Shown here piece by piece: positions 1 to 42,935 of a stretch of DNA of 42,935 nt. Each line of letters begins with the position of its first letter. Position 1 is the first letter of the stretch. A program made the translations under genes and the position numbers. This DNA is from a virus, in the IMG/VR virus record IMGVR_UViG_3300042691_016661, positions 1 to 42,935 of that record; one strand, given 5' to 3'. The notes beneath the pieces are model-generated. The model was not told the origin of the DNA. It was given only the letters and a program-made list of their open reading frames with translations, and searched no databases.

Positions 1-28
1 CGGCCACGGCATCACTGTTCGTTGTCAT
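1..28 (-). CDS. 5' end of a 171-aa accessory gene that continues at 42935
   Basis: The start codon ATG is at 28-26, preceded on the minus strand by AGGAGCAACG, a good ribosome binding site. Nine codons and one base lie here. If position 1 is joined to 42935, the frame continues without a stop to 42448, giving a 171-aa protein. The seamless join is the main evidence that the window is a closed circle. The start overlaps the 3' end of the gene at 12-389. See the entry at 42448-42935 for the rest of the protein. Confidence 0.75.
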
Positions 29-54
29 CGTTGCTCCTCGCGGCCGTGTCCGGC
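1..54. repeat. Leader repeat, copy 1 (partner at 1801-1857)
   Basis: This stretch carries, on the minus strand, GACACGGC, then AGGAGCAACGATGA and AACGAACAG. The same order of blocks is found at 1801-1857 with small differences. Both copies contain a ribosome binding site and start codon, so two unrelated genes (the 171-aa gene here and the 87-aa zinc-ribbon gene at 1831) begin from nearly the same leader. The upstream genes that run into each copy therefore share a related C-terminal tail (PDTAxRSND). The repeat is seen directly. Its role as a recombination or translation module is inference. Confidence 0.7.
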
Positions 55-389
55 AGCTTAGCTCGAACGTTAGGCCACGAATCCGCCACCGTGGCGTCGG
101 CCAGTGCAAGCAACATGCGCTTCTCGGTGGGCCGCTCGTCGCCTGGGTACTGCGGCATGTCTGGCAAGTGCAGCAGGCGCACCAAGCCCCGCATGGACTC
201 AGCAATACGGGTTCTCTCCGCCTTCACCTTGGCATCTACCCACGCAGCGATGTGGTCGCCGGTCAATTCGTCGGCGCCCCACCATGCACGGCCGCCGTCA
301 TCAAACCAAAGCGGCGCAGCGCCTTTTGTGGCGTCGTGGCCTAACCCCTCGCTCAAGCCGAGCACTGCCGGCGTACTTTCTGTGGTCAT
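12..389 (-). CDS. Accessory protein of unknown function, 125 aa
   Basis: I do not recognise the family. The ATG at 389 follows AGGAG with a 5-base gap. The protein is acidic and soluble, with a Trp/Gly-rich block (PLWFDDGGRAWWG, about residues 27-39) and a helical middle. Its start lies in the loop of the attC-like site at 339-434, so about the first 17 codons are attC sequence. Its last codons read through the half-site at 55-75 and the leader of the next gene, ending at TGA inside that gene. The original cassette gene may have ended near the GCCTAAC at 75-69 and been extended. It belongs to the minus-strand cassette operon. Confidence 0.7.
   Translation of the reverse strand: MTTESTPAVLGLSEGLGHDATKGAAPLWFDDGGRAWWGADELTGDHIAAWVDAKVKAERTRIAESMRGLVRLLHLPDMPQYPGDERPTEKRMLLALADATVADSWPNVRAKLPDTAARSNDDNEQ
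55..75 (+). other. attC-like half-site (L' and R' boxes only)
   Basis: Plus strand reads GCTTAGCTCGAAC followed by the core GTTAGGC (69-75), nearly identical to the right half of the full site ending at 434. No inverse core or L'' box is visible upstream; the leader repeat occupies that place. This looks like the surviving right half of an attC whose left half was replaced by the leader repeat. It lies inside the coding end of the 12-389 gene. Confidence 0.6.
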
Positions 390-434
390 TTCAACTCCTG
401 TGCCGGCAGTGCCGGCTTAGCTCGAACGTTAGGC
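339..434 (+). other. Integron attC-like recombination site, 96 bp
   Basis: Seen directly: inverse core GCCTAAC (339-345), L'' AAGCCG (355-360), one unpaired A (361), an 11-bp arm (362-372), a loop, the complementary arm (402-412), L' CGGCTT (413-418) and core GTTAGGC (428-434). The stem pairs perfectly apart from A361, which matches the extrahelical base of classical attC sites such as those of aadA cassettes. The variable loop holds the ribosome binding site and ATG of the 12-389 gene, and the core holds the TAA stop of the 429-722 gene. attC polarity is plus; both flanking genes are minus. Confidence 0.85.
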
Positions 435-722
435 ATCAACAACACCGCGCGCCACCATCTCATCGGGCAATGCGCGAATGCGGTCGCTCAGGGCCTGCAG
501 GTACTCGTGCGGGTTCTCCGGCCTGAAGACCATCAGGCGCCCGTCTTCCATCTTCACGGCAGACGGGTACATGCACGAATGAATGGCGGTCAGCAGATTC
601 ACAGCGCTTTCAACGCGGACGCGTGCTTGGTCCCGCTCGGCGCGCAACACCCGGTTTTCGCGCTGTAGCTGCTCAATCTGGTGGCCTGCGCGCATCAGCG
701 CGGCATCTAGTTCTTCGTCCAT
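429..722 (-). CDS. Accessory coiled-coil protein of unknown function, 97 aa
   Basis: The ATG at 722 follows AGGAGCAACG, the same leader motif used by other genes of this region. Residues 10-45 (HQIEQLQRENRVLRAERDQA) form a predicted coiled coil. The second half (HEYLQALSDRIRALPDEMVA) is helical. The coiled-coil start is common in small phage accessory proteins, but I recognise no family. The TAA stop (431-429) is formed by the GCCTAAC core of the attC-like site at 339-434, and the gene starts just beyond the site at 743-796, so it fills one cassette unit exactly. Confidence 0.75.
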   Translation of the reverse strand: MDEELDAALMRAGHQIEQLQRENRVLRAERDQARVRVESAVNLLTAIHSCMYPSAVKMEDGRLMVFRPENPHEYLQALSDRIRALPDEMVARGVVDA

Positions 723-742
723 CGTTGCTCCTATCGGTTGAT

Positions 743-796
743 GCCTAACTGCCGCTCAAGCCGACCCCTTCGGGGCGGCTTAGCTTTTCGTTAGGG
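743..796 (+). other. Integron attC-like recombination site, 54 bp
   Basis: A compact, textbook-like site. Inverse core GCCTAAC (743-749), L'' AAGCCG (758-763), unpaired A764, CCCC (765-768), loop TTC, GGGG (772-775), L' CGGCTT (776-781) and core GTTAGGG (790-796). The length and the position of the unpaired A match the short attC sites of proteobacterial mobile integrons. The core supplies the TAA stop (793-791) of the 60-aa gene, and the site lies 21 bases upstream of the 722 start. The fold is very likely; activity with an integron integrase is untested. Confidence 0.88.
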
Positions 797-973
797 CGCA
801 CGCGGCGGGCGCAGTTTGTGCGCCTTCAGCAGTGCGGCTTCGATCAACTCCGCGGGCGTCTCGGGCTGCTCGGCTATCCACTGCACCAGCCACTCGGGTA
901 AGCGCAGCGGCACGTTTACCCGGCGCAGGCCGGGCGGTGCTGGCGGGCGTCCGCCTTTGTTCTTGTCGGTCAT
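791..973 (-). CDS. Small ribbon-helix-helix-like protein, 60 aa
   Basis: The ATG at 973 follows GGGAGCGAACG and overlaps the stop of the preceding gene (ATGA). The protein has a basic Gly/Pro N-terminus (KNKGGRPPAPPGLRRVNV), then LRLPEWLVQWI and a helix ETPAELIEAALLKAH. A short strand followed by two helices suggests a ribbon-helix-helix DNA-binding fold; this is inference from the pattern. It is the last of three overlapping genes in the cassette unit between the attC-like sites at 743-796 and 1480-1566. Its stop codon is formed by the attC core. Confidence 0.65.
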   Translation of the reverse strand: MTDKNKGGRPPAPPGLRRVNVPLRLPEWLVQWIAEQPETPAELIEAALLKAHKLRPPRAP

Positions 974-1185
974 CGTTCGCTCCCGAGCGTTGCGCTGCTG
1001 ATCCACTCGTGAGGCATCAGCTCGCGCACAACCTCTCGGCGGCGCCACAGCAGCAGCCCCCGCAAACGCCATTCGGTCCACTGCTCAATGTTCACGCCCT
1101 GGTCTTCGCAATACCCGCTGCCTGGCGGGCATGCGCGCGAGTAGCGGCGCCACTCGCAGCGCATGAGGCGCTGCGTCTTGGTCAC
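970..1185 (-). CDS. Small Arg/Trp-rich protein of unknown function, 71 aa
   Basis: GTG at 1185 overlaps the stop of the upstream gene (GTGA), and its own stop overlaps the next ATG (ATGA). The sequence starts VTKTQRLMRCEWRR, has two cysteines (CPPGSGYC) near residues 18-25, then WTEWRLRGLLLWRRREVVREL. It is basic, with no recognisable family. Translational coupling on both sides supports a real gene. It belongs to the three-gene unit driven by the promoter at 1406-1433. Confidence 0.6.
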   Translation of the reverse strand: MTKTQRLMRCEWRRYSRACPPGSGYCEDQGVNIEQWTEWRLRGLLLWRRREVVRELMPHEWISSATLGSER

Positions 1186-1370
1186 TTCACGCGCTCCAGG
1201 TAGGCGGCGCTCACGCGCTCCGTGACGTACTGGCCGCGCTTCGGGCCGAGGCCGTCGTAGCTCACCCACACGCCGTTGCGGGTCACGCGCTGCACGATGG
1301 CGCGCTGGGCGGCGCCGTAGCGCACAACATCGCCGTACTTCAGGGTCTTGGTTTCTGCGGTGGTCATCAT
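1182..1370 (-). CDS. Small SH3-like protein of unknown function, 62 aa
   Basis: ATG at 1370 (a second ATG follows at 1367) preceded by GGAG with a 6-base gap. The pattern KYGDVVRYG, RAIVQRV, VWVSYDGLGPKRGQYV resembles the short beta-strands of an SH3-like or KOW-like barrel, as in many phage gene-cassette proteins. This is inference from the strand pattern. It is the first gene after the promoter/operator at 1403-1433 and is coupled to the 71-aa gene. Confidence 0.68.
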   Translation of the reverse strand: MMTTAETKTLKYGDVVRYGAAQRAIVQRVTRNGVWVSYDGLGPKRGQYVTERVSAAYLERVK

Positions 1371-1402
1371 GTTTGGCTCCGGGCTGCTGTGTCGCGATGG
1401 GT

Positions 1403-1421
1403 GTTACTGTAGCGCAGTAAC
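1403..1421. promoter_or_regulatory. Perfect inverted repeat, probable operator
   Basis: GTTACTG (1403-1409) and CAGTAAC (1415-1421) are perfect arms with a 5-base spacer. The repeat covers the -10 box of the minus-strand promoter at 1406-1433. GTAAC recurs near 1444. GGTAAC and GTTACC half-sites also flank the repressor start at 5161-5190, so the phage repressor could bind here; that link is inference. Confidence 0.6.
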
Positions 1422-1433
1422 CGCCAGCGTCAA
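1406..1433 (-). promoter_or_regulatory. Sigma70-like promoter of the cassette operon
   Basis: On the minus strand, -35 TTGACG (1433-1428) and -10 TACAGT (1411-1406) are separated by 16 bases. The predicted start is near 1399, about 30 bases before the ATG at 1370. It could transcribe 1370 to 791 and, if the attC folds do not terminate, the genes onward through the origin to 41594. Confidence 0.65.
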
Positions 1434-1479
1434 CAACTATTTTGTAACACGCAAACATGGTCACGCTTTGGCACCAGCG

Positions 1480-1566
1480 CTCTAACACTTCGCACAAGCT
1501 GACCGCGGGTGGCGGTGCAGCGCTCTGGCCACGCACAAGCGCGGCAGCTTTCCTCAATCGTTAGGC
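1480..1566 (+). other. Integron attC-like recombination site, 87 bp
   Basis: L'' AAGCTG (1496-1501), unpaired A1502, CCGCG (1503-1507), a 32-base variable segment, CGCGG (1540-1544), L' CAGCTT (1545-1550), and core GTTAGGC (1560-1566). The inverse core is CTCTAAC (1480-1486): its TAAC matches but the first base departs from the RYYYAAC consensus. The same A is unpaired as in the other two full sites, although the L box sequences differ. This is co-variation, and argues that the fold, not a simple repeat, is conserved. The site ends two bases before the stop of the 1568-1831 gene. Confidence 0.78.
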
Positions 1567-1567
1567 A

Positions 1568-1831
1568 TCAGTATTCGCAGTCCACCTCAAACTCGGCATC
1601 GCAGTTCGGGCACTGAACCTCCATGCCAGTCGTGCGCGGCGTGCCGTGTTCGCATGCCTGCATGCTCTGCCTGCCGTCCCAAAAGTCGGGGTAGCGCAGC
1701 AGGTCCACGTATTTGCCGCAGGCTGGACAGTGGCAGGTAAGCTCAAGGCTCCATGTCGCGCGCACCGCGCCCTGATGCCTAACTGTCGGTTCAACCGGAC
1801 CCGCCACGGCGGGCTGCTTCTGTTCGTTCAT
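1568..1831 (-). CDS. Double zinc-ribbon protein, 87 aa
   Basis: ATG at 1831 follows AGGAGCAACG. Two Cys pairs are visible: CHCPACGKY (about residues 33-41) and CPNCDAEFEVDC (about 75-86), with one more Cys-His pair (ACEHG) between, as in rubredoxin-like or zinc-ribbon proteins. The first 16 or so residues (MNEQKQPAVAGPVEPT then VRHQ) are encoded by the degenerate attC-like site at 1777-1832, so the ancestral start may lie further in. Function unknown; nucleic-acid or metal binding is likely. It occupies one cassette-sized unit. Confidence 0.7.
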   Translation of the reverse strand: MNEQKQPAVAGPVEPTVRHQGAVRATWSLELTCHCPACGKYVDLLRYPDFWDGRQSMQACEHGTPRTTGMEVQCPNCDAEFEVDCEY

Positions 1832-1832
1832 C
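1777..1832 (+). other. Degenerate attC-like site, 56 bp
   Basis: Inverse core GCCTAAC (1777-1783), AACCGG (1793-1798), unpaired A1799, CCCGCC (1800-1805), loop AC, GGCGGG (1808-1813), CTGCTT (1814-1819). The outer arms pair with one mismatch and one wobble. The right core is eroded (GTTCATC instead of GTTRRRY). The right part overlaps leader repeat copy 2, including the ATG at 1831, and the site contains the stop of the 1791-2123 gene. It marks the inner boundary of the cassette-like region. Confidence 0.55.
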
Positions 1833-2123
1833 GTTGCTCCTGTGCGCCGTGTCGGGCGCGGTTAACCTGGCGTCAAACCGGCCGATCATCCGCGCCAGTT
1901 CCGGCCCGATGCGGTACGTCAGCGGCCCGCCGCGCAGCCCCGAGGTGCGGACGGCGTCCAGCAGCCCGACCTTGCGGAGACTGAAGATCGACCCACGGGC
2001 GGTCTGGATGGGAACGTCGAACTTCACCAACACGTCGCTGATTGTCAGCTCGTCGTCGGGGTTGGCTGCGAAGTAGGCCACCAGCCGGTCGCGCAAGGTG
2101 ATGGCGTGCCCGCGCATCCTCAT
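1791..2123 (-). CDS. Predicted winged-helix DNA-binding protein, 110 aa
   Basis: ATG at 2123 overlaps the stop of the preceding small gene by one base. Residues 8-80 (LRDRLVAYFAANPDDELTI, SDVLVKFDVPIQTARGSIF, LRKVGLLDAV, LTYRIG) follow a winged-helix pattern: helix, short acidic turn, recognition helix, then a beta wing. The family is not named with certainty. The C-terminal tail (PDTAHRSNDERTEAARRG) is encoded by leader repeat copy 2 and the attC-like site and parallels the tail of the 12-389 protein. A gene regulator of the adjacent early region is plausible. Confidence 0.65.
   Translation of the reverse strand: MRMRGHAITLRDRLVAYFAANPDDELTISDVLVKFDVPIQTARGSIFSLRKVGLLDAVRTSGLRGGPLTYRIGPELARMIGRFDARLTAPDTAHRSNDERTEAARRGGSG
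1801..1857. repeat. Leader repeat, copy 2 (partner at 1-54)
   Basis: Carries the same blocks as 1-54: a CGCCACGGC-like start, CTGTTCGTT, CATCGTTGCTCCT and GCCGTGTC. It overlaps the start of the 87-aa gene and the 3' end of the 110-aa gene, exactly as copy 1 overlaps the 171-aa and 125-aa genes. Confidence 0.7.
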
Positions 2124-2230
2124 CACCACCACCCCGCCAGCAGCGTCGCCACGGCCCAGCAAGCGACCACCAGCGCCAGCGACAGGATCGACCTGGACCA
2201 GCCGGCCAGGAGCTTGTCGACCGGCTTCAC
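2123..2230 (-). CDS. Small single-span membrane protein, 35 aa
   Basis: GTG at 2230 overlaps the upstream stop (GTGA), and the stop TGA shares its A with the next ATG. The product has a short basic head (VKPVDKLLAGWSRS) followed by one hydrophobic span (ILSLALVVACWAVATLLAGWW). No family is recognised. Tight coupling on both sides and a clean membrane segment support a real gene. Confidence 0.6.
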   Translation of the reverse strand: MKPVDKLLAGWSRSILSLALVVACWAVATLLAGWW

Positions 2231-2466
2231 AGGACACCCCCATCGGGCTGCTGTGGTGTGTGCTGATACAGCAGCGGCGATGCGCAGACGTAGCCCGGCC
2301 TTTCTGCCAGCGTTTCGCTGGCGGCCAGGGCTTTGGCGAAGCGCTCCAGAGCCTGAATGCTGAACTCAAAAACCTCGCGGCGCCGGTTCTGAATGCCGAC
2401 CTCCGGCTCGGTGACCGTGAACGCGCCGCTCTTGCGAGCCAGGGCCACGAGTTCGTTGCGCGTCAT
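2227..2466 (-). CDS. Small phage protein of unknown function, 79 aa
   Basis: ATG at 2466 overlaps the stop of the HTH gene (ATGA). The N-terminus MTRNELVALARKSGAF and the helix FSIQALERFAKALAASE resemble short early phage proteins common next to recombination genes, but no function is known to me. Two residues upstream of the C-terminal PLLYQHTPQQ are Cys-Ala. It sits in the minus operon with recT and the exonuclease. Confidence 0.68.
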   Translation of the reverse strand: MTRNELVALARKSGAFTVTEPEVGIQNRRREVFEFSIQALERFAKALAASETLAERPGYVCASPLLYQHTPQQPDGGVL

Positions 2467-2672
2467 GGCTTGCCTTTCGCGGTCGGCTGCTGCTGTCCGA
2501 CCGACAGAAACCGGTCGATGTCGGCCCGGCGGTAGCGCACGGGCGAGCGAATGCCTTCGCCGAGCTTGGTCCATGGCGGGCCCTGACGCTTGGCGCGCCA
2601 GGCTTCGAGGGTATCTGTGGAGACGCGCAGCAGGGCTGCCGCCTCCTTGGGGGTGAGGAGGTCGGTGCTCAT
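2463..2672 (-). CDS. Helix-turn-helix (excisionase/MerR-like) protein, 69 aa
   Basis: ATG at 2672, just after the RecT stop. The motif LLTPKEAAALLRVSTDTLEA is the helix-turn-helix start of HTH_17/excisionase-type proteins, followed by a wing (IRSPVRYRRADIDRFL). Such proteins bend DNA at attachment sites or act as small repressors. Because only a relic of the integrase is left (41472-41593), an excisionase role would be obsolete; a regulatory role fits as well. Confidence 0.8.
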   Translation of the reverse strand: MSTDLLTPKEAAALLRVSTDTLEAWRAKRQGPPWTKLGEGIRSPVRYRRADIDRFLSVGQQQPTAKGKP

Positions 2673-2674
2673 GG

Positions 2675-3505
2675 TCAGATCGGGCTGTCGTCGTCGGTGG
2701 CGGGCGGGCCGGGCGGCATGTCGATCACGCCATCGTCGTCGGCCGGCGCGGGGGGCGGCGCCTGCTCGGCGACTTTGGCCAGGCGCGACGGGCGGCGGGG
2801 CGTGTCGGCCGGCGGCGGATCCGCGGGCGGCTGGGCGGGCGCGGCGGGCTGCTCCGGCGGCATGAACAGTTCGTCGTCCTCGTGCACCACGCCGTCGAGG
2901 TCGGTGCTCAGTGGCAGGCGCTTGGCCAGGCGGCGGATCGCGGTCTTGCGGGCCATCTCGTCCCACCAGGTTGACCAAGGGCCGGCGTTCCTCGAGCGGC
3001 TGACCGCGCGCACCTGCTCGACCTGCTTCTTGCTCAGGATCTCGACGTATGCGGCGCCGTCTTTCATCTTCGCGACCGCGTACACCCCGACGACCTCGCC
3101 ACGATCGCCGAACCAGTCCGGCTCGTGCTGTGGCACCAAGTCGATGCCGGGCCTGTAGGTGAACTTGTCGGCCTTGTAGACGATCTGCGCGTCGATGCTG
3201 GCAAGTTCGCCGCTGTTGCGGACCAGCTTCAGAATCCCGCCGAGCATCGGCATGAAGCTGCACTTGCCGCCGAAGGTCACGATCGCGCCCTCTCGCCCGT
3301 CCGGCAGCAGGCCCATCTGCGCGGCGCGCGTGGCGGCTGCGAACAGCGTGCGGCGGTCGGCTTCCATCAGGTCCGGGTTGGTCTGCACGGCGGTGAGCGT
3401 GGTGCGGACGAAGCGCTCGACCGGAATGTGCGCGGGCAGCGCGGCCTTGAACTGGGGCGCCATCTTCTCGACGGCGGTGCGGACTTCTACGAGTGCGGTG
3501 CTCAT
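2675..3505 (-). CDS. recT: RecT-family single-strand annealing protein, 276 aa
   Basis: Binds and anneals single-stranded DNA during phage recombination, partnering with the exonuclease encoded just upstream. The RecT core covers about residues 1-200: FVRTTLTAVQTNPDLMEADR, FAAATRAAQMGLLPDGREGA, and then IVTFGGKCSFMPMLGGILKL, with KTAIRRLAKRLPLS at the core end. The tail (about 205-276) is Pro/Asp-rich and disordered, ending in an acidic DDDSPI, reminiscent of the acidic tips that bind host SSB. ATG at 3505 overlaps the exonuclease stop (ATGA). Confidence 0.93.
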   Translation of the reverse strand: MSTALVEVRTAVEKMAPQFKAALPAHIPVERFVRTTLTAVQTNPDLMEADRRTLFAAATRAAQMGLLPDGREGAIVTFGGKCSFMPMLGGILKLVRNSGELASIDAQIVYKADKFTYRPGIDLVPQHEPDWFGDRGEVVGVYAVAKMKDGAAYVEILSKKQVEQVRAVSRSRNAGPWSTWWDEMARKTAIRRLAKRLPLSTDLDGVVHEDDELFMPPEQPAAPAQPPADPPPADTPRRPSRLAKVAEQAPPPAPADDDGVIDMPPGPPATDDDSPI

Positions 3506-4452
3506 GCTTTGGCTTTCTTTGCGGTGATGCGCAGGTTGCGGTAGCCATTGCGGGCCCCGGTGCAGGTGCCGACCATGTCGGCGGTGATCAGGGTCCCGGG
3601 GTTGTCGGCGACCATGCCGGCGCTGATCGAGAACCCGGGCAGCAGGACCTTCTCGGCGTCGCCGATGGCCTCGAACAGTTGGGCCTTGGCGACCTTGGCT
3701 TCCTCGTCGTATTCGTCGCGCAGCGCGCAGGACGTGCGATAGTCGTTCACCAACGATGCGATCTTCGCATCACCCGAGGCGTCGAGGATCTTGCCCGGAT
3801 CGGCGTAGGAGTTCAGGCGGATCAGCGCGGCTGCGTCCTGCGGCATCACCGGGTCGGGCTCCTCGCCGGCCTCGACGGTGCGCCAGAACTCGGCGATCTT
3901 GGCGCGGATGGCGCGGATCACCTCCTCGTCGCGCTGCCGCTCGATGATCTCGAAGCGGTTGCCGCCGACAAAGGCGCCGATGAACGTGCGCTTGAACCCG
4001 CTCACGCCCATCTGGTGCTGGACCTGCATTTCGATGTGCTCGGGCGCCTCGATGCTGCCGTCGTCTTGCTCGAGCCAGCCGTCGCGGAAGGCCAGATAGT
4101 CGACGTTCTTGATCTCCAAGTGCGCCGGCTCGTCGCCGATGATCGCGAAGTCGAACGACGAACCCATGCGCAGGTCGGCGTCGCGCCAGTAGTCCTTCAT
4201 CGGGGCGATCTTCCAGCCCTTCTCCTCGGCGATGCCGTGCGCGATCGCGGCCTCGAGGCGGATGCCCCAGCGCATGCGCTCGTTGGTCTTGAACTCCGGC
4301 ACCTGGCCGGAGCGCTTGCGGTGCCACAGGTCGAAGTGGGTCACGTAGGGCGACATGCCGAACAAGGCCGCCGACTCGGTGCTGGTCACGTCCTGCGTGC
4401 GCAACTGCAACCAGTGGTCCTGGTCGCGTGGGGTGATGATCATGGCGGGCAA
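3502..4452 (-). CDS. YqaJ-type recombination exonuclease, 316 aa
   Basis: A lambda-exonuclease-like 5'-3' nuclease that makes single strands for RecT. Motifs: WLQLRTQDVTSTESAALFG (substrate-binding start of YqaJ), RMRWGIRLEAAIAHGIAEEKG, SSFDFAIIGDEPAHLEIKNV (the D...ExK nuclease core near residues 105-120) and HIEMQVQHQM. The TTG at 4452 follows AGGAG at a proper distance; an ATG three codons later is the alternative. It is the first gene of the minus recombination operon. Confidence 0.9.
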   Translation of the reverse strand: MPAMIITPRDQDHWLQLRTQDVTSTESAALFGMSPYVTHFDLWHRKRSGQVPEFKTNERMRWGIRLEAAIAHGIAEEKGWKIAPMKDYWRDADLRMGSSFDFAIIGDEPAHLEIKNVDYLAFRDGWLEQDDGSIEAPEHIEMQVQHQMGVSGFKRTFIGAFVGGNRFEIIERQRDEEVIRAIRAKIAEFWRTVEAGEEPDPVMPQDAAALIRLNSYADPGKILDASGDAKIASLVNDYRTSCALRDEYDEEAKVAKAQLFEAIGDAEKVLLPGFSISAGMVADNPGTLITADMVGTCTGARNGYRNLRITAKKAKA

Positions 4453-4495
4453 CGCCGTCTCCTGGTAAGCCGCCGGCCACCCGGCGAACGAGGAG

Positions 4496-4525
4496 AATTC
4501 TGCAGCAGTGTTTATAAAACCGCAA
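4496..4525 (-). promoter_or_regulatory. Possible promoter for the exonuclease-recT operon
   Basis: Minus strand -35 TTGCGG (4525-4520) and -10 AGAATT (4501-4496) with an 18-base spacer. GTGTT...AACAC arms surround an AT-rich centre here. The -35 resembles the TTGCGA/TTGTGA boxes of the late promoters. Weak on sequence alone. Confidence 0.35.
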
Positions 4526-4537
4526 CACCTACAGCAC

Positions 4538-4569
4538 GGGGAAAACCCGCGTTGCTGCCACGCAACGGG
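4538..4569 (-). terminator. Rho-independent-type terminator after the repressor gene
   Basis: Minus strand: CCCGTTGC (4569-4562), six-base loop, GCAACGCGGG (4555-4546) with one bulge, then TTTTCCCC. It starts directly after the repressor stop codon (4572-4570). Confidence 0.6.
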
Positions 4570-5157
4570 CTAAGGCAGGATCATCAGAACAGGAACGGCC
4601 CACTCCAGTTCGACACCGGTCGCGGTGGCCGCCGGCCCGACCAGGTCCCACCGGCCGCGGACGTAGGACCGGTGCGGCGCTGCGATGTAGATCACCCCGT
4701 TGCGCAGCCGGCACCAGGACAGGCGGCCGACCGCCTCGGCCTGGATCCCGCGCGGCGCGCTGGCTTGGCCAAACAGCAGCCAGCCGTGCATGTGCGCCAG
4801 CGGGCCGCCGGCTGTGCGGCACTCGACCGCGGCGATCTCTGCCGGCAGGCCGCCGCCCGGGTGCGCGACGCTGGCGCTGGAGCGCTGCTCCCAGTGGAAC
4901 TCCCCTGCCCCGTCGACGTAGCCCACGATCGGCACGGCCTGGCCGCCGCTGTCGATTCGGACGCCGGCGGCCTGCATCACCTCGTCGGCGGGCACGCCGA
5001 GCAGGCGCGCGATCTCTGCTGCTTCAGTGAGCTTCATCTCGCGCTTGCCCCGCAGCATGAGGCTGACGGCGGCGGCGTCCAGGGCCATCTGGCGGGCCAG
5101 CGCGCGCTGCGACAGACCGCGGTCGGCCAGGCGGTCGCGGAACCATTTCGTATCCAT
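4570..5157 (-). CDS. CI-like phage repressor with a degenerate S24 domain, 195 aa
   Basis: The N-terminal HTH_3 domain (residues 1-60) contains LADRGLSQRALARQMALDAA then AVSLMLRGKREM. The C-terminal half follows the LexA/CI fold (PIVGYVDGAGEFHW, HGWLLFG, VELEWAVPVLMILP). However, where the catalytic serine is expected (usually GDSM or similar) the protein reads TAGGPLAHMHGW, and where the lysine is expected it reads VIYIAAPHR. Autocleavage on SOS therefore looks unlikely. ATG at 5157 has GGGAG eight bases upstream. It is divergent from the Cro-like gene and should maintain lysogeny or immunity. Confidence 0.85.
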   Translation of the reverse strand: MDTKWFRDRLADRGLSQRALARQMALDAAAVSLMLRGKREMKLTEAAEIARLLGVPADEVMQAAGVRIDSGGQAVPIVGYVDGAGEFHWEQRSSASVAHPGGGLPAEIAAVECRTAGGPLAHMHGWLLFGQASAPRGIQAEAVGRLSWCRLRNGVIYIAAPHRSYVRGRWDLVGPAATATGVELEWAVPVLMILP

Positions 5158-5160
5158 GCG

Positions 5161-5190
5161 GGTAACTCCCGGTTTCGTCCGTTTGTTACC
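5161..5190. promoter_or_regulatory. Repressor operator half-sites GGTAAC / GTTACC
   Basis: GGTAAC (5161-5166) and GTTACC (5185-5190) form an inverted pair with an 18-base gap immediately upstream of the repressor start. The predicted -10 of the repressor promoter (TAACAA, 5188-5183 on the minus strand) falls in the second half-site, so binding could give autoregulation. The same half-site occurs at 1403-1421. Confidence 0.5.
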
Positions 5191-5205
5191 GTGCCGGTGA
5201 TCAAT

Positions 5206-5239
5206 TTGCAAGCGCGTTGAGATTCCCGCATAATTGCGG
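5206..5239 (+). promoter_or_regulatory. Early rightward promoter with overlapping operator
   Basis: -35 TTGCAA (5206-5211), 17-base spacer, -10 CATAAT (5229-5234). The perfect repeat CCGCA-TAAT-TGCGG (5226-5239) covers the -10 and is a good Cro/CI operator candidate. TTGCAA is its own complement, so the same hexamer can serve as the -35 of the divergent repressor promoter, also with a 17-base spacer to TAACAA. Confidence 0.65.
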
Positions 5240-5274
5240 AATCCTCACCGACGATGCGAACCTCGCACCGACCT

Positions 5275-5547
5275 ATGACCCCTGCAGACATCGTGATCTC
5301 CCGCTTTGGTGGCGTCCGGCCGCTGGCGCGGCTCTTGGGCAAGGACCCGTCGACGATCCACCGTTGGAAACAGCCGGCCGAGCGGGGCGGGCTGGACGGC
5401 CGGGTGCCGTCTGCCGTCCAGGTGCGGCTTCTTGAGCTTGCGCGCGAGAAGGGCGTCGACCTGACGCCTGCCGATCTTGTCCTTGGCAGTACGTGTAGCG
5501 CTGGTGCCGTGGAGTCAACGGGCCGGGCGGGGGGTGTGGCGGCGTGA
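5275..5547 (+). CDS. Cro-like regulator, 90 aa
   Basis: The motif DIVISRFGGVRPLARLLG then KDPSTIHRWK (residues 5-32) is a helix-turn-helix typical of Cro/CII-like proteins of Burkholderiales phages; RVPSAVQVRLLELAREKGVD is the usual dimerising helix. It should repress the early promoter and favour lytic growth. ATG at 5275 is chosen from the family length; an in-frame ATG at 5254 would add seven residues. Neither has a strong ribosome binding site. The last codons overlap the next start (GTGA at 5544). Confidence 0.8.
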   Translation: MTPADIVISRFGGVRPLARLLGKDPSTIHRWKQPAERGGLDGRVPSAVQVRLLELAREKGVDLTPADLVLGSTCSAGAVESTGRAGGVAA

Positions 5548-5864
5548 AACTGCTGTACGTCTCCGGCCCGATGTCGGGCATCAAGGACCTGAACTTTCCC
5601 GCCTTCATCGCCGCCGCCGAGGCCTTGCGCCGCGCCGGCTACGCGGTCGTGAACCCGGTCGACCTGAACCCTGACCCCAAAGCCGAGTGGAAGGCCTGCA
5701 TGCGGGCGGACATCAAGGCGCTGGTGGACTGCGATGCCGTGGCCACGCTGCCGGGCTGGAAGGAGTCGCGGGGTGCCTGGCTGGAGACGCGCATCGCCAA
5801 CGGGCTGGGCATGGAGGTCGACAGCGTCGAGGGGTGGCTGGCGCGGGCGGGGGTGGTGGCGTGA
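5544..5864 (+). CDS. DUF4406 (nucleoside deoxyribosyltransferase-like) protein, 106 aa
   Basis: The opening KLLYVSGPMSGIKDLNFPAF and the block DIKALVDCDAVATLPGWKES, then GAWLETRIANGLGM, are the hallmarks of DUF4406, related to nucleoside 2-deoxyribosyltransferases (GPM(S/T)G substrate loop; a family acidic residue near WLE). The enzyme may act on nucleotides during infection; the reaction is not proven for this family. GTG at 5544 overlaps the Cro-like stop, and the stop overlaps the methyltransferase GTG. Confidence 0.82.
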   Translation: MKLLYVSGPMSGIKDLNFPAFIAAAEALRRAGYAVVNPVDLNPDPKAEWKACMRADIKALVDCDAVATLPGWKESRGAWLETRIANGLGMEVDSVEGWLARAGVVA

Positions 5865-34866: not shown

Positions 34867-37400
34867 TGATGCGTGATCGGTGCGTCGCGGCGGTGCAGAA
34901 GGCCGCAGGCCGGGAGATGAGCCAGAAGGAGATCCAGGGCATCGAGGACCGGATCTCCAAGCACATGCGCCTGCTGGCCCGGCGCGACCCGGCGGCGTGG
35001 CAGAAGCTGCCCGAGGCGGCGCGGATGGGCCAGGCCGCGCAGGCGGCGGTCGCCGAGCTCACGCGCGAGGCCGAGCTCCAGAAGTTCCGGCTCCAGAAGC
35101 AGCTGATCGCCAAGGACCGCCTCGAGCGCGAGACGGGTTCCTGGGGCGCTGGTCGGCTCGATGCGATCAAGCGCAAGATCGCGGCCGTCACGGACGGCAA
35201 GGGATCGTTCCGCTCGATCGAGACGCTGGCGCATTCGATCCGCACCGACGCGCTGCGGCGCCTGCAGGACGCGTTCGACGTGCTCGACCCGCGGATGTTC
35301 GGCCTATTTGAGAACGAGGCGGGCGTGACGGCGTTCATGCGCGCGCTGTACGGCAAGACCGAGGGGATCGACCCGAAGGTCGTCAAGGCGGCCAAGGCCT
35401 GGCTGGACGTGGCCAACGGCATGCGCGAGCAGTTCAACGCGGCCGGCGGCAAGATCGGCCGGCTGCAGGACTGGGCCATGCCGCAGCACCACTCGCAGAT
35501 GCGGGTGTCGCAGGCCGGCGTCGACCGGTGGATCGAGGACACGCTGCCCAAGGTCGACCGATCGCGCTACGTCAACGAGGACGGCACGCTCTACGACGAC
35601 CGGCAGATGCGCGAGTTCATGCGCGGCGCCTGGCGGTCGATCGCGACGAACGGCCTGGACGACATCGAGCCCGGGCGGCCCGGCGCGGCGATGGTGGCCA
35701 ACCGACGCGCAGCGCACCGCGAGATCCACTTCAAGGGCCCCGACGAGTTCCTGGCCTACCAGAAAGACTACGGCGACGCGCCGCTGCTGCAGATCATGGT
35801 GAACCACGTCGACGGCATCGCGCGCGACACGGCGGCCGTCGAGGAGTTCGGGCCCAACCCGGCGCTCATGTACCAGTACCTGCGCGACAAGGGCCTGAGC
35901 GAGGGCGCGGTCGGCGATCCGCAGAACACCGGCCGCTACGAGGCGCAGGCCACGAAGCTCGACAGCCTCTGGCGCTGGGTGAGCGGCGACCAGCCGCCGG
36001 TGGCCAGCATGTGGCTGGCGCGCGGCTTCGACGCGGTGCGCAACTGGCTGGTGGCTACGAGGCTCGGCGGCGCCGTGATCTCGTCGATCGCCGACGAGGG
36101 CACGATCGCGATCACATCGAAGATCAACAACCTGTCCTACATGCAGGTTTTCGGGAACGAGCTCCGCGGCATGAACCTGGCCAACGCCGAGGAGCTCCGG
36201 CAGGCGCGCCGGGCCGGCTTGGCGCTCGAGACGATGATCGGCGACCTGAACCGGTGGGGCCAGGACAATCTCGGCAGCACGATCTCGTCGAAGCTGGCCC
36301 ACACGACGCTGCGCCTGTCGGGCCTGAACGCGATCACCGACGTGCGGCGCCGCGCGTTCGGCGTCACGATGATGGACTCGATCGGGCACCTGACCCGCAA
36401 CGTCGACACGCTGGCCAAGCTCGACGAGCACGACAACCGCATCCTCCTGTCCAAGGGCATCACCGAAACCGACTGGCAGGTGTGGCGCCTTGCCGAGCCC
36501 GAGAAGTGGGGCGGCAACGACACGGTGCTGACGCCGGACGCGATCTACGCCATCCCCGACGAGAAGCTGGCCGGCCTGGTGACGGACATGGCCGACCCGA
36601 CCGCGGCGCGCACGCTCAAGCGCGAGGCGGCGCTGAAGCTGATCGGCACGGTGGCCGAGGAGGTCGACATGGCCGTGATCACGCCCAAGGCCATCGAGCG
36701 CATGATGACCGGCGCCGGCCTGGAGCGCGGCACCTGGAAGGGCGAGCTCACGCGCTCGGTGTTCCTGTTCAAGACCACGCCGATCGCGATCGTCTATCGG
36801 CACTGGTCGCGCGCGCTGGCCGCGGACACGGCAGCCGGCAAGGTGGGCTACATCTCGGCGCTGATCGCCTCGACGACGCTGCTGGGCGCCTTCGCGATGC
36901 AGCTGAAGGAGATCCTGGCCGGCCGCGACCCGCGGGTGCTGTACTCCAGCGACGAGCCCGGGCTGGCGGTGAAGAACTGGGTGCAGGCCTTCCTGCAGGG
37001 CGGATCGTTCGGCATCTACGGCGACTTCCTGTTCTCCAACACCACGCGGGCGCAGTCGAGCCCGATCGCGGCGTTCCTGGGTCCCGTGGCGAGCCTGGCC
37101 GAGCAGTTCTTCAACCTGACGCAGGGCAACCTGGTGCAGATGGCGCAAGGCAAGGAGACGAACGCCGGCGCCGAGGCGGTGCGGTTCTTCAAGAACAACA
37201 TCCCGATGGCGAACCTCTGGTACACCAAGGCCGCGCTCGATCACGCGATCTTCAACCAGCTGCAGGAGTACGTGTCGCCGGGCTACCTGAACCAGCAGCA
37301 GGCCCGCATGCGGCGCGAGTTCGGCGCGGTAAGCTACTGGAACCCGCACGACCCGCTGCCGGAGCGGGCGCCGGACTTCGGGCGCATGGTCGGCCAGTGA
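34866..37400 (+). CDS. Large internal virion protein, gp16-like position, 844 aa
   Basis: ATG at 34866 (a GTG at 34863 and an ATG at 34869 are alternatives) after CAGGGGG. Largely helical: IEDRISKHMRLLARRDPAAW, LFENEAGVTAFMRALYGKTE, WLDVANGMREQFNAAGGKIG, and RLGGAVISSIADEGTIAITS. Late in the protein a hydrophobic stretch (VGYISALIASTTLLGAFAMQ) could insert into membrane. This pattern is common to large podoviral ejection proteins following polyvalent proteins. It has no catalytic domain that I can see; the muramidase lies in the earlier gene. Confidence 0.78.
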   Translation: MMRDRCVAAVQKAAGREMSQKEIQGIEDRISKHMRLLARRDPAAWQKLPEAARMGQAAQAAVAELTREAELQKFRLQKQLIAKDRLERETGSWGAGRLDAIKRKIAAVTDGKGSFRSIETLAHSIRTDALRRLQDAFDVLDPRMFGLFENEAGVTAFMRALYGKTEGIDPKVVKAAKAWLDVANGMREQFNAAGGKIGRLQDWAMPQHHSQMRVSQAGVDRWIEDTLPKVDRSRYVNEDGTLYDDRQMREFMRGAWRSIATNGLDDIEPGRPGAAMVANRRAAHREIHFKGPDEFLAYQKDYGDAPLLQIMVNHVDGIARDTAAVEEFGPNPALMYQYLRDKGLSEGAVGDPQNTGRYEAQATKLDSLWRWVSGDQPPVASMWLARGFDAVRNWLVATRLGGAVISSIADEGTIAITSKINNLSYMQVFGNELRGMNLANAEELRQARRAGLALETMIGDLNRWGQDNLGSTISSKLAHTTLRLSGLNAITDVRRRAFGVTMMDSIGHLTRNVDTLAKLDEHDNRILLSKGITETDWQVWRLAEPEKWGGNDTVLTPDAIYAIPDEKLAGLVTDMADPTAARTLKREAALKLIGTVAEEVDMAVITPKAIERMMTGAGLERGTWKGELTRSVFLFKTTPIAIVYRHWSRALAADTAAGKVGYISALIASTTLLGAFAMQLKEILAGRDPRVLYSSDEPGLAVKNWVQAFLQGGSFGIYGDFLFSNTTRAQSSPIAAFLGPVASLAEQFFNLTQGNLVQMAQGKETNAGAEAVRFFKNNIPMANLWYTKAALDHAIFNQLQEYVSPGYLNQQQARMRREFGAVSYWNPHDPLPERAPDFGRMVGQ

Positions 37401-40574: not shown

Positions 40575-40967
40575 ATGAAGACTCTCACCGGGATCGGAGA
40601 GGTCGCCGATGTCGTCGGCGGCGTGATCGACCGCATCTGGCCGAACAAGACCGAGCAGGAGCGCGCCGAACTGCAGGCGGCCATGCTGGTCGTGCAGGGG
40701 CAGCTGAAAGTCAACGAGGCCGAGGCGGGCAGCAGCAGCGCCTTCGTGGCCGGCTGGCGGCCGTTCATCGGCTGGGTCTGCGGCGCCGCCTGCGCGTGGA
40801 ACTGGATCGGCCTGCCGATCGCCAAGGCGTTCCTGCCGATGGTGGCCGGCGTCGCCATCACGCTCGAGCCCGCAGACCTGACCGAGATGCTGCCGATCCT
40901 GATGGGGATGCTTGGCCTAGCCGGCTACCGCACGTTCGAGAAAACCCGCGGCGTTGCCGCCCGCTGA
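40575..40967 (+). CDS. Holin with multiple membrane spans (Holin_3TMs type), 130 aa
   Basis: Early part ADVVGGVIDRIWPNKTEQER, AELQAAMLVVQGQLKVNEAE is amphipathic. The core FVAGWRPFIGWVCGAACAWN, WIGLPIAKAFLPMVAGVAIT and LPILMGMLGLAGYRTFEK gives two to three spans, matching the 3TM holin family. It would open the membrane for the endolysin just upstream. No Rz/Rz1 spanin pair was recognised. Confidence 0.88.
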   Translation: MKTLTGIGEVADVVGGVIDRIWPNKTEQERAELQAAMLVVQGQLKVNEAEAGSSSAFVAGWRPFIGWVCGAACAWNWIGLPIAKAFLPMVAGVAITLEPADLTEMLPILMGMLGLAGYRTFEKTRGVAAR

Positions 40968-40978
40968 CAGGGAGGTCT

Positions 40979-41497
40979 ATGCCCACACTCGTACCCGCAT
41001 CCATGGTCGCTGCCGATGTCGCGACGCAGGCCGAGCTCGACGCGGCTTCGCTGCTGAAGCAGACCGTGCAGACGGTCTCGGGGGCAGTGGCCACCGGTAC
41101 AGCGATCATCCCGCGAGACGACACGATCCCGCAGATCACCGAGGGCACCGAGTTCCTGACGCGGGCAATCACGCCAACGGCCGCGGCGAACATTCTCGAA
41201 GTGGAGGTTGTGCTGCACGTGTCGTGCTCGGTCACGAGCGACGTGGTCGCTGCGCTGTTCCGGGACTCGACCGCTAATGCCCTGGCTGTCGCCAGTCAGT
41301 ACGCCACCACGGCGCAGGGCGTCATGGGCATCGTCCTTACCCACCGCGTGGCGGCAGGGTCTACCAGCCCGACGACGTTCCGCGTTCGCGCGGGCCCGAT
41401 TTCGGCAGGCACCGTGACTGTCAACGGTGCAGCGGGCGGCCGGTACTATGGCGGCGCCTATGCGTCGTCGATCACCGTTCGAGAACTGCTGCCTTGA
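40979..41497 (+). CDS. Fibre-like or decoration protein, 172 aa
   Basis: ATG at 40979 follows GGGAGG. All-beta, with PASMVAADVATQAELDAASL, LHVSCSVTSDVVAALFRDST, HRVAAGSTSPTTFRVRAGP and a last motif GGRYYGGAYASSITVRELLP, a common trimer-forming C-terminus of phage fibres. It lies after the lysis genes as the last late gene. The end overlaps the integrase relic on the other strand by 26 bases. Confidence 0.72.
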   Translation: MPTLVPASMVAADVATQAELDAASLLKQTVQTVSGAVATGTAIIPRDDTIPQITEGTEFLTRAITPTAAANILEVEVVLHVSCSVTSDVVAALFRDSTANALAVASQYATTAQGVMGIVLTHRVAAGSTSPTTFRVRAGPISAGTVTVNGAAGGRYYGGAYASSITVRELLP

Positions 41498-41593
41498 CCG
41501 CGAAGTCGCGCGCGCGCAGCTGCGTGTAGCGCATCAGCTGCTTCGGGTCCTTGTGGCCCGTGACCAGCATCACCTCGTGTAGCGCGTAGAGCG
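41472..41593 (-). pseudogene. C-terminal relic of a tyrosine recombinase (integrase)
   Basis: On the minus strand an open frame of about 40 codons ends at TGA (41474-41472) and reads VALYALHEVMLVTGHKDPKQ, LMRYTQLRARDFAVKAAVLE. This is the end of a tyrosine recombinase: GHKD holds the His of box II and RYTQL the tyrosine nucleophile. The Arg box (HDLRH-like) and everything before it are missing; upstream sequence codes for an unrelated gene. It overlaps the late gene end. It could be a decayed phage integrase, or a host gene end picked up at an attachment site. Confidence 0.78.
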
Positions 41594-41598
41594 CTACA
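41578..41598. terminator. Perfect 8-bp inverted repeat between convergent operons
   Basis: TGTAGCGC (41578-41585), GTAGA loop, GCGCTACA (41591-41598). It separates the convergent late plus operon and the minus cassette operon, covers the stop of the 42076 gene, and lies at the break point of the integrase relic. GTGTAGCGC also occurs at 41524. It may be a bidirectional terminator without T-runs or a trace of an attachment site. Confidence 0.5.
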
Positions 41599-42076
41599 GG
41601 TCGACGACCTCGACATCGTGCGGCCGGCGGCGGCCCGTGAGGATGTCCAGGATCCGCGCTTCGGTCTTGCGGTGCGCGCGCACCATCACCCTGGCCGGCA
41701 GGACGGCGGTCGCCTCGGCGTAGTCCTCAAGGATCGCGCGCACGGCGCGGATGCCCTGGCCGTCGAGGCGGATCGCGCCGCCCTGGAGGGCACGCTTGCC
41801 GGCCATGGCCATGCCCGCGACGGCGTCCTGCAGCAGGCCCTGGCCGTCCTCAAGCACGCCGAGCTCGACCAGCGTCTCCATGAGGTTGACCGCGTCGCTC
41901 ACGGAGCGCCAGTCGTCCGTCGTGGGCTGCGGCGCCTGCTCGATCGCGGCCAGGCCCTGCCACATGCGCGTCAGCTGGTGCGTGCGGATGGCGGCCGGCA
42001 GCGGCGCGGTCGGGCTGGCGGAAAGCTCGTCGATCAGGGTGTAAGTGCGCGGGTGCGACGGGCGGCGGCGTTTCAC
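41594..42076 (-). CDS. Accessory protein of unknown function, 160 aa
   Basis: GTG at 42076 overlaps the upstream stop (GTGA) and follows GGAGCGAAC. Basic head (KRRRPSHPRTYTLIDEL), then helices: AAIRTHQLTRMWQGLAAIEQ, RSVSDAVNLMETLVELGVLE, LQDAVAGMAMAGKRALQGGA, IRAVRAILEDYAEATAVLPA. It resembles hypothetical proteins seen near phage ends in Burkholderiales. It is the last gene of the minus accessory operon. Confidence 0.72.
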   Translation of the reverse strand: MKRRRPSHPRTYTLIDELSASPTAPLPAAIRTHQLTRMWQGLAAIEQAPQPTTDDWRSVSDAVNLMETLVELGVLEDGQGLLQDAVAGMAMAGKRALQGGAIRLDGQGIRAVRAILEDYAEATAVLPARVMVRAHRKTEARILDILTGRRRPHDVEVVDL

Positions 42077-42411
42077 TGTTCGCTCCAGAAGTCACTGCGC
42101 GGCGACGGCACGCGAGGGTAGGCTCGCCGCAGGCCGTCGAGCGCGCGCGTCCAGCCGCCAGTGCGCCACGGCGCGCCATCGGCCTCGATGCGGTACACGT
42201 CGACGCGGCGCGTGCGGTACAGCCGCAGCACGTGCTGCACGGGCTGGCCGGTGTCGTGGTCGATGACGATGACCTCGCGGCGCAGGTTGGGCAGGTCGGG
42301 GGCTCGGCCCGGCGCTGGGCGCGCCATGCGGGCGGCGTCTCGGCCGCGGCGCATCGCTTCGATCTTGCGCGCGCGGGCCTCGCGCTGGCGTGGGGATAGT
42401 CGGCGGTACAT
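42073..42411 (-). CDS. Accessory protein of unknown function, 112 aa
   Basis: ATG at 42411 chosen (a TTG at 42429 is in the hairpin of the half-site). Basic helical N-terminus (MYRRLSPRQREARARKIEAM, RRGRDAARMARPAPG), then a beta-rich part: VIVIDHDTGQPVQHVLRLYR and VDVYRIEADGAPWRTGGWTR. Looks like a small DNA-interacting or regulatory protein; the family is not recognised. Translationally coupled to the 160-aa gene. Confidence 0.68.
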   Translation of the reverse strand: MYRRLSPRQREARARKIEAMRRGRDAARMARPAPGRAPDLPNLRREVIVIDHDTGQPVQHVLRLYRTRRVDVYRIEADGAPWRTGGWTRALDGLRRAYPRVPSPRSDFWSEQ

Positions 42412-42419
42412 GGTGCTGC

Positions 42420-42453
42420 AGACCTTCAACGGTCTGGCGAATTCCTGTTAGGC
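42420..42453 (+). other. attC-like half-site: short hairpin plus core GTTAGGC
   Basis: CAGACC (42420-42425), loop, GGTCTG (42431-42436), then 10 bases and GTTAGGC (42447-42453). No inverse core lies upstream. The core forms the TAA stop of the 171-aa gene, as in other units. It could be an eroded attC, or a simple core-type (attI- or attG-like) insertion point for the cassette array. Confidence 0.5.
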
Positions 42454-42935
42454 CCCAAAAGCGTCACGCCGCATTTCTTCGTGCCATTCCGCGCGTATCT
42501 CTTCCTCGCGTCGCCAATCGACACCGTGCTGCCGCTCGTAGTCCACCGCAGCGTGGCCGCATCCGGCCTCAAGCGCAGCGATCTGGTCCAGCCGCAGCGG
42601 CTCCGCCTGTTTTGGTGCTGTGTACAGCGGAGCCCACATCGCACCGCTGTACTGGTCATCGCAGGGCACTTCCTCGCGCAACATCATCCAGCGGTTGCGC
42701 CCGGTAATGGCGCTGTTCGGGTAGCCCCACGCCACTGGCTCGTCGGGCGGCAGCAGCGGCAGCGGCGGGTGACTCGCCTCGCTCAGGTGCCCTGCTGTCA
42801 CGACCTCAGAAAACTCGTCGATTGCTTGCATGTTGGCGGCATGCTGCAAGGCCTCAGCCGCTTCACGCAGCAGCGCGGCAGGCTTTGTAATGCCGAACAG
42901 CTCGCACTGGCTGGCCTCATCGTACAGGCGCTGTA
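42448..42935 (-). CDS. Main part of a 171-aa accessory protein (start at 28)
   Basis: This frame continues from position 28-1 across the circle join. Full protein begins MTTNSDAVAVQRLYDEASQC and ELFGITKPAALLREAAEALQ. A later block, PDEPVAWGYPN ... MWAPLYTAPKQ (about 74-120), is a short motif common to many small accessory phage proteins (PVAW...W.PLYTAP, as in DUF551-type/Eaa-type proteins). The C-terminus (YERQHGVDWRREEEIRAEWH) is a charged helix. Its stop codon lies in the GCCTAAC core of the half-site at 42447-42453. Confidence 0.72.
   Translation of the reverse strand, partial: QRLYDEASQCELFGITKPAALLREAAEALQHAANMQAIDEFSEVVTAGHLSEASHPPLPLLPPDEPVAWGYPNSAITGRNRWMMLREEVPCDDQYSGAMWAPLYTAPKQAEPLRLDQIAALEAGCGHAAVDYERQHGVDWRREEEIRAEWHEEMRRDAFGA

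Follow-up and report, generated by a model that had tools for sequence, protein, structure and literature searches.

The DNA analysed here, called the window throughout, is the whole of IMG/VR record IMGVR_UViG_3300042691_016661 (G000; 42,935 bases), a tailed, podovirus-like phage with genes for primase, helicase, terminase, head-tail adaptor, major head protein, tail, endolysin and holin. Read round the circle, positions 42447-42935 and 1-1873 form an array region in which short minus-strand genes follow one another in a run, together with plus-strand sites resembling the attC recombination sites of integrons and, at the left end, an attI-type site (Table 1). We consider it very probable that this region represents an integron cassette array with reversed genes, carried by a phage that has no intI gene.

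A covariance model trained on 19 bacterial (Rubrivivax-type) attC sites, none of them viral and thus independent of the window, matched at 339-434, 743-797 and 1479-1566, yielding three significant attC sites within 1.2 kb, all on the plus strand and all where a preliminary description of this DNA had placed them. Significant matches of this kind were one line of support to which that description had looked; the other, cassette differences at the cores between related phages, was found as well and is treated below. Outside the array, nowhere in the window reached E 0.1 with the filters of the model switched off, a setting under which only part of the long-loop site 339-434 was aligned (14 bits), the full match being returned with default filters. 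Our own motif-plus-stem scanner found the same three sites; applied to 100 dinucleotide shuffles, it averaged 0.49 sites, and in none of them did three fall within 1.6 kb. GTTAGGC occurs eight times in the window, compared to 1.5 expected, and seven of these copies lie in the array. The single unpaired base of the stem, initially taken for an A, is a C on the plus strand of the 5' arm, which corresponds to the extrahelical G usually seen on the bottom strand. A degenerate fourth site had been proposed at 1777-1832; it exists, but spans 1777-1873, and is 90% identical to an intact attC in locus L003 and 89% to one in L013. The supposed half-site at 55-75 likewise belongs to the series, not as a half-site, however, but as the final part of a full-length attC of 99 nt that is truncated here by the contig end, positions 1-75 being 98.7% identical to the whole attC at L025 965-1063. 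A 21-mer of the window sites, GGCTTAGCTCGAACGTTAGGC, is also carried by the long cassette arrays of Rubrivivax albus and other Burkholderiales and by a few metagenome-assembled genomes of other groups. With at least two attC sites of one polarity within a few kb, the region has the composition of an integron cassette array, or CALIN (cluster of attC sites lacking an integron integrase). Judged by sequence and predicted fold, the attC sites of the window are real integron-type sites, for which recombination by IntI on the folded bottom strand is predicted.

Table 1. Features of the array region and its surroundings, with one cassette gene from another phage fragment in the last line. Positions are those of the window unless a locus is named.
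Feature	Position	Strand	Details
attI-type site GAATTCCTGTTAGGC	42439-42453	+	Array begins at GTT of core 42447-42453
Cassette 1 gene	42448-42933	-	5' end lost at contig end; stop TAA formed in attI core
attC of cassette 1	1-75	+	R'' and L'' removed by contig end; basis, L025 match
Ribosome-binding site and start AGGAGCAACGATG	38-26		In loop of the cut attC of cassette 1
Cassette 2 gene	12-389	-	125 aa; start within attC 339-434, leader MTTESTPAVLGLSEGLG
attC of cassette 2	339-434	+	64.5 bits, E 1.0e-14; fold z -5 to -6
Cassette 3 gene	429-722	-	97 aa; stop TAA in core 428-434
attC of cassette 3	743-797	+	R' GTTAGGG; 26.7 bits, E 6.4e-5
Cassette 4, second gene	791-973	-	60 aa; stop in core
Cassette 4, first gene	1182-1370	-	62 aa; basis, open reading frame and codon score
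Perfect dyad GTTACTG-TAGCG-CAGTAAC	1403-1421		Overlaps the promoter-like sequence of cassette 4
Promoter-like TTGACG-16-TACAGT	1406-1433	-	Inside cassette 4; sole sigma-70-like match in 1-5000
attC of cassette 4	1479/1480-1566	+	37.6 bits, E 9.4e-8
Cassette 5 gene	1568-1831	-	87 aa, zinc-ribbon-like; start within attC 1777-1873
attC of cassette 5	1777-1873	+	Final site of array; R' reads GTCAAAC through mutation
RecT-like single-stranded DNA annealing gene	2675-3505		Precedes and adjoins array
Acb2/Tad1 hairpin-domain gene	L140 4498-4782		Fragment G072; between two attC; Pfam 50 bits, above cut-off

All cassette genes of the window lie on the minus strand and all attC sites on the plus strand, so that they depart from canonical cassettes, in which the gene runs in attC polarity with the attC at its 3' end. 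The preliminary description had missed this reversal, along with the gene starts inside several attC sites and the attI of the array. Gene direction was scored per distinct cassette by codon usage trained on the late genes of the phage, which replaced a longest-open-reading-frame count (86:47) that proved too noisy in GC-rich DNA. In viral arrays, 118 of 121 scored cassettes were reversed and 3 forward (36 further ones too weak and 2 ambiguous), whereas host-type bacterial arrays gave 38 forward and 2 reversed cassettes out of 40 (41 too weak, 1 ambiguous); in Rubrivivax arrays the core is followed by a gene that reads in attC polarity. For this bacterial control we used our own scanner, since the covariance model (R1) recovered only some of the known bacterial sites, with their long loops. 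The polarity of the attC sites themselves is not in doubt, because the intI-bearing viral loci, whose cassettes are reversed by 22 to 2, have attI on the expected side and because one natural insertion, described below, agrees with it. Forty-three of the 118 reversed viral cassettes have their stop codon within six bases of a core, as do the window genes ending at 429 and 791. Contig L020 has attC sites at its two ends, and these include both polarities. As the genes read towards attI, their expression would not come from a promoter at that site; they would instead be read within the leftward operon of the phage. To the left of the array, the next genes lie at 42073-42411 and 41594-42076.

The reversed genes often begin inside the attC itself. 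Among distinct viral attC sites of at least 80 nt, a ribosome-binding site with an ATG that opens a frame of at least 35 codons was found in the reversed direction in 55 of 128 and in the other direction in one; the corresponding figures for bacterial attC sites were 5 and 0 of 104. The window has such starts in the loops of two complete sites and of the cut one. When the window's site is folded as RNA, a long GC-rich hairpin forms whose loop displays AGGAG and ATG, so that the attC may double as 5' leader and as code for the N-terminus. Many of the attC-encoded leaders have ..LERGVR or ..LSEGLG at their end, two readings of the same DNA in different frames. In the Rubrivivax albus arrays L041 and L045 we observed a long inner hairpin common to the attC loops, which measure about 129 nt, often with ATGATG/CATCATC in the loop.

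The element at 42447-42453, previously listed as a further half-site, is indeed part of the series, but as the core of an attI-type site. Its motif, GAATTN3GTTRGGY, has 24 occurrences in our 4.35-Mb sequence set (both strands, duplicate loci included). Apart from those in L139 and the window, which open an array at its left end, a phage-type intI always follows directly downstream. The window site is thus a candidate attI by sequence, with the form of the attI beside phage intI. The corresponding phage IntI family comprises 28 viral loci, and R-H-R-Y is conserved in all aligned members; 16 of these proteins form one clade (support 95/92), apart from the Rubrivivax IntI and IntI1 (100/100), with a few divergent members placed outside it. 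The intI genes lie beside attI and array and point away from attI, as is usual. The records that bear them are those of phages, as seen from the genes for major head, tail and tape-measure proteins, phage integrase and primase in G015, terminase (TerL) and portal genes in G061, tail genes in G053 and the major head protein in others. For two intI-bearing records of 20 and 8 kb, G018 and G010, a phage nature could not be shown, only ParB-like and unassigned proteins being found in G018. A Burkholderiales genome (L218; G471 contig 21, 8000-23235) combines a phage integrase, IntI, the attI motif and reversed cassettes, one with a methyltransferase; it is probably a prophage, because the same layout adjoins tail and phage-integrase genes. 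In L192, Virus Rctr41k (KX853513.1), a gene annotated as xerD (4680-5678) encodes an IntI-like protein, 47% identical to the phage IntI, downstream of same-strand small genes; this covariance model found no attC there.

The window itself carries no intI, as the preliminary description had supposed: a TIGR02249 search of G000 gave no match. It is accordingly not a complete integron and has no phage-clade IntI of its own, and an integrase must therefore act in trans. That description had assigned this role to a host enzyme, and Rubrivivax-type hosts do carry IntI: six of ten genomes with similar attC sites have one above the curated cut-off, and an IntI-like protein at E <1e-90 is found in 146 of 401 host-family genomes. 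However, the attI motif of the window is found only with phage IntI, and as the IntI of related phages adjoins this very motif, we regard an enzyme supplied by another phage of this lineage, either resident or co-infecting, as at least as likely, leaving a chromosomal IntI as a serious contender somewhat below even chances.

Movement of cassettes is visible between relatives. The phage loci L177 and L178 are 100% identical over 1095 bp and 580 bp, and L178 has one additional cassette, inserted exactly at the GTT of an attI whose 15-mer differs from that of the window by one base. By its sequence, this extra cassette is what attI x attC recombination should yield. L139 and L170 have in common an 840-bp cassette (98%) with R' cores at both ends. 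Parts of the window recur elsewhere: the body at 427-638 in L003, 789-973 in L129 and 773-985 in L141/L144, each beginning at the R' core or in a shared L' arm. Together with the exact L178 insertion, these recurrences show core-bounded cassettes present in some relatives and absent from others. The cassette 3 gene has homologues in L002 (83% identity) and L003 (63%, the homology starting at the core), and the second gene of cassette 4 is 90% identical at the DNA level in L129 from position 789 and 85% in L141/L144, with a 59% homologue in L030; a cassette in L011 holds a 71% identical homologue of the cassette 1 gene. Conversely, the attC at 339-434 matches an attC of L128 at 95 of 96 positions where the gene body differs, and that at 1479-1566 has a 95% identical counterpart in L129 in another context.

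Several observations weigh against a cassette array served by IntI. The window consists of one contig from an uncultured phage, with its break within an attC, most of the viral records compared are metagenome contigs, and intI is missing. L127 (G039) is 99% identical over 40961-42394, directly beside the array, and has a different first cassette; its divergence from the window sets in at 42394, and it has no GAATT attI motif. A break at the core had been expected here and is ruled out, since the actual one lies 53 bp outside the attI core. Many ends of high-scoring segment pairs (HSPs) within arrays fall in gene bodies: of 158 collapsed breaks, 45 coincide with an attC in each of the two partners, and 16% of array positions are equally near to one, so that part of the array divergence is ordinary, and this count is supportive only, because the collapse was rough and conserved attC arms draw BLAST ends towards R'. 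Moreover, some exchanges break at R'' rather than R', so that a body is found with two leaders or a leader with several bodies, and L141 has a deletion that leaves the wrong attC; this is not a standard IntI product.

Such observations lead to the strongest alternative, namely that a phage RecT-like annealing protein recombines similar attC sites by homology, the sites being mere repeats and IntI having no part here. A RecT-like gene adjoins the array, the window lacks intI, and the R'' exchanges and the L133/L141 deletion, which has a 20-bp shared arm, fit homology. Against it, attI and attC share only GTT at the joint of the L177/L178 insertion, the attC arms differ in sequence while keeping pairing and polarity, and the window retains its attI motif. 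We therefore consider homology alone unlikely, though by no means negligible. The R'' breaks may mean either that both attC strands are used or that RecT-type homologous recombination adds to the shuffling. At L128 2032-2127 and in L022, L025, L015, L010, L013 and L133, with breaks at R'', one attC and leader is fused in frame to differing protein bodies, or one body to differing leaders, and the RecT-like gene beside the window array could take part in cassette exchange.

Far less probable is a passive relic, in which a fragment of a host's chromosomal integron was acquired a single time and has since lost its mobility; we reject this reading: the 21-mer of the cut site is identical to Rubrivivax arrays, the last attC has decayed and there is no intI in the window, but host genes run with attC polarity and phage genes against it, cassettes vary between close phage relatives and recur in other phages, and the attI motif is of the phage type. 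That the hairpins serve to terminate transcription or act as regulatory structures at 5' ends, and resemble attC by convergence, as their position between short operon genes and the start codon in some of them might suggest, is scarcely credible and likewise rejected, since a model trained on host attC finds them in the correct polarity with fitting cores, spacers and extrahelical base, no terminator-like sites coincide with them, and exchange is bounded by cores.

For the reversed, phage-borne cassette array that we favour, the window shows the phage attI motif, reversed genes and starts in attC loops. Five cassettes in attC polarity (+) would follow the attI at 42439-42453 round the circle to 1873; cassettes would be gained at attI and lost or moved at cores, with IntI, supplied in trans by a phage or the host, acting on folded attC strands. 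The genes would be expressed from the phage operon rather than from a Pc promoter at attI, and the arrangement probably allows small early genes, counter-defence genes among them, to be exchanged rapidly. Going further, phages might run an integron class of their own, with attC as translation start and N-terminal leader and with recombination at R' and R'' swapping genes and leaders, a proposal that is tentative and that we hold at rather less than even confidence.

While integrons are known as bacterial gene-capture platforms, finds in phages have mostly been read as carried-along fragments. Qi et al. 2023 (PMC9892861) describe CALINs and integrons in cultured phages (Vibrio, P1, Shewanella, TJE1, PH101, P12002L), with IntI1 recombining five of six tested attC sites; as here, attC arrays lie in phage genomes, many without integrase. 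The searched passages of that paper mention no reversed genes, starts in attC, phage-specific IntI clade or this attI motif, and no IntI in the phages collection exceeds 57% identity to the phage IntI described above. The sedentary chromosomal integrons of Rubrivivax and other Burkholderiales have attC arms and cores nearly identical to those of the window and an IntI of the same family; they differ in their forward genes (38:2), longer attC sites (~129 nt) and an IntI in another clade. In Treponema integrons, intI points towards attI (PMC3607928); intI and cassette genes share a direction there, as in the phages, where it is the cassette genes that are reversed. Class 1 integrons (IntI1, attI1, Pc) agree with the phage system in attC architecture and R-H-R-Y, but their genes do not read towards attI as the phage cassette genes do, and no resistance gene family was seen among the 95 cassette proteins scanned. 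Integrons in phages are thus already known, and a lineage with reversed genes starting in attC appears new within the literature searched, which covered few subscription papers and no bioRxiv preprints and held no report of such a form. What emerges is a phage group with dedicated IntI, attI and operon-adapted arrays, in which one insertion is visible in sequence. If so, phages can gain small genes, counter-defence genes included, cassette by cassette from a shared pool. The strand of attC that is used, expression without Pc and the joining of gene to attC become testable, the reversed gene starting in the attC loop being a case where this join is visible.

Pfam assigned four N6/N4 methylases, one RNA ligase and one Acb2/Tad1 hairpin protein among the 95 cassette proteins. 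Acb2 and Tad1 are proteins by which phages counter CBASS and Thoeris, and methylases can shield phage DNA. The cassette proteins of the window received no function from Pfam, PHROGs or PADLOC beyond the weak zinc ribbon of cassette 5.

Positions 1-2600 of the window gave no match to annotated phages and plasmids, and an Rfam scan of the array region none either; the terminase of G000 is, over part of its length, 74.5% identical to Burkholderia phage BcepC6B. ARAGORN reports a tRNA without clear anticodon at 35135-35227, within a coding region, which is probably spurious. Within cassette 4, the overlap of a perfect dyad with the promoter-like sequence suggests that 1403-1433 is possibly a repressed promoter carried by the cassette.

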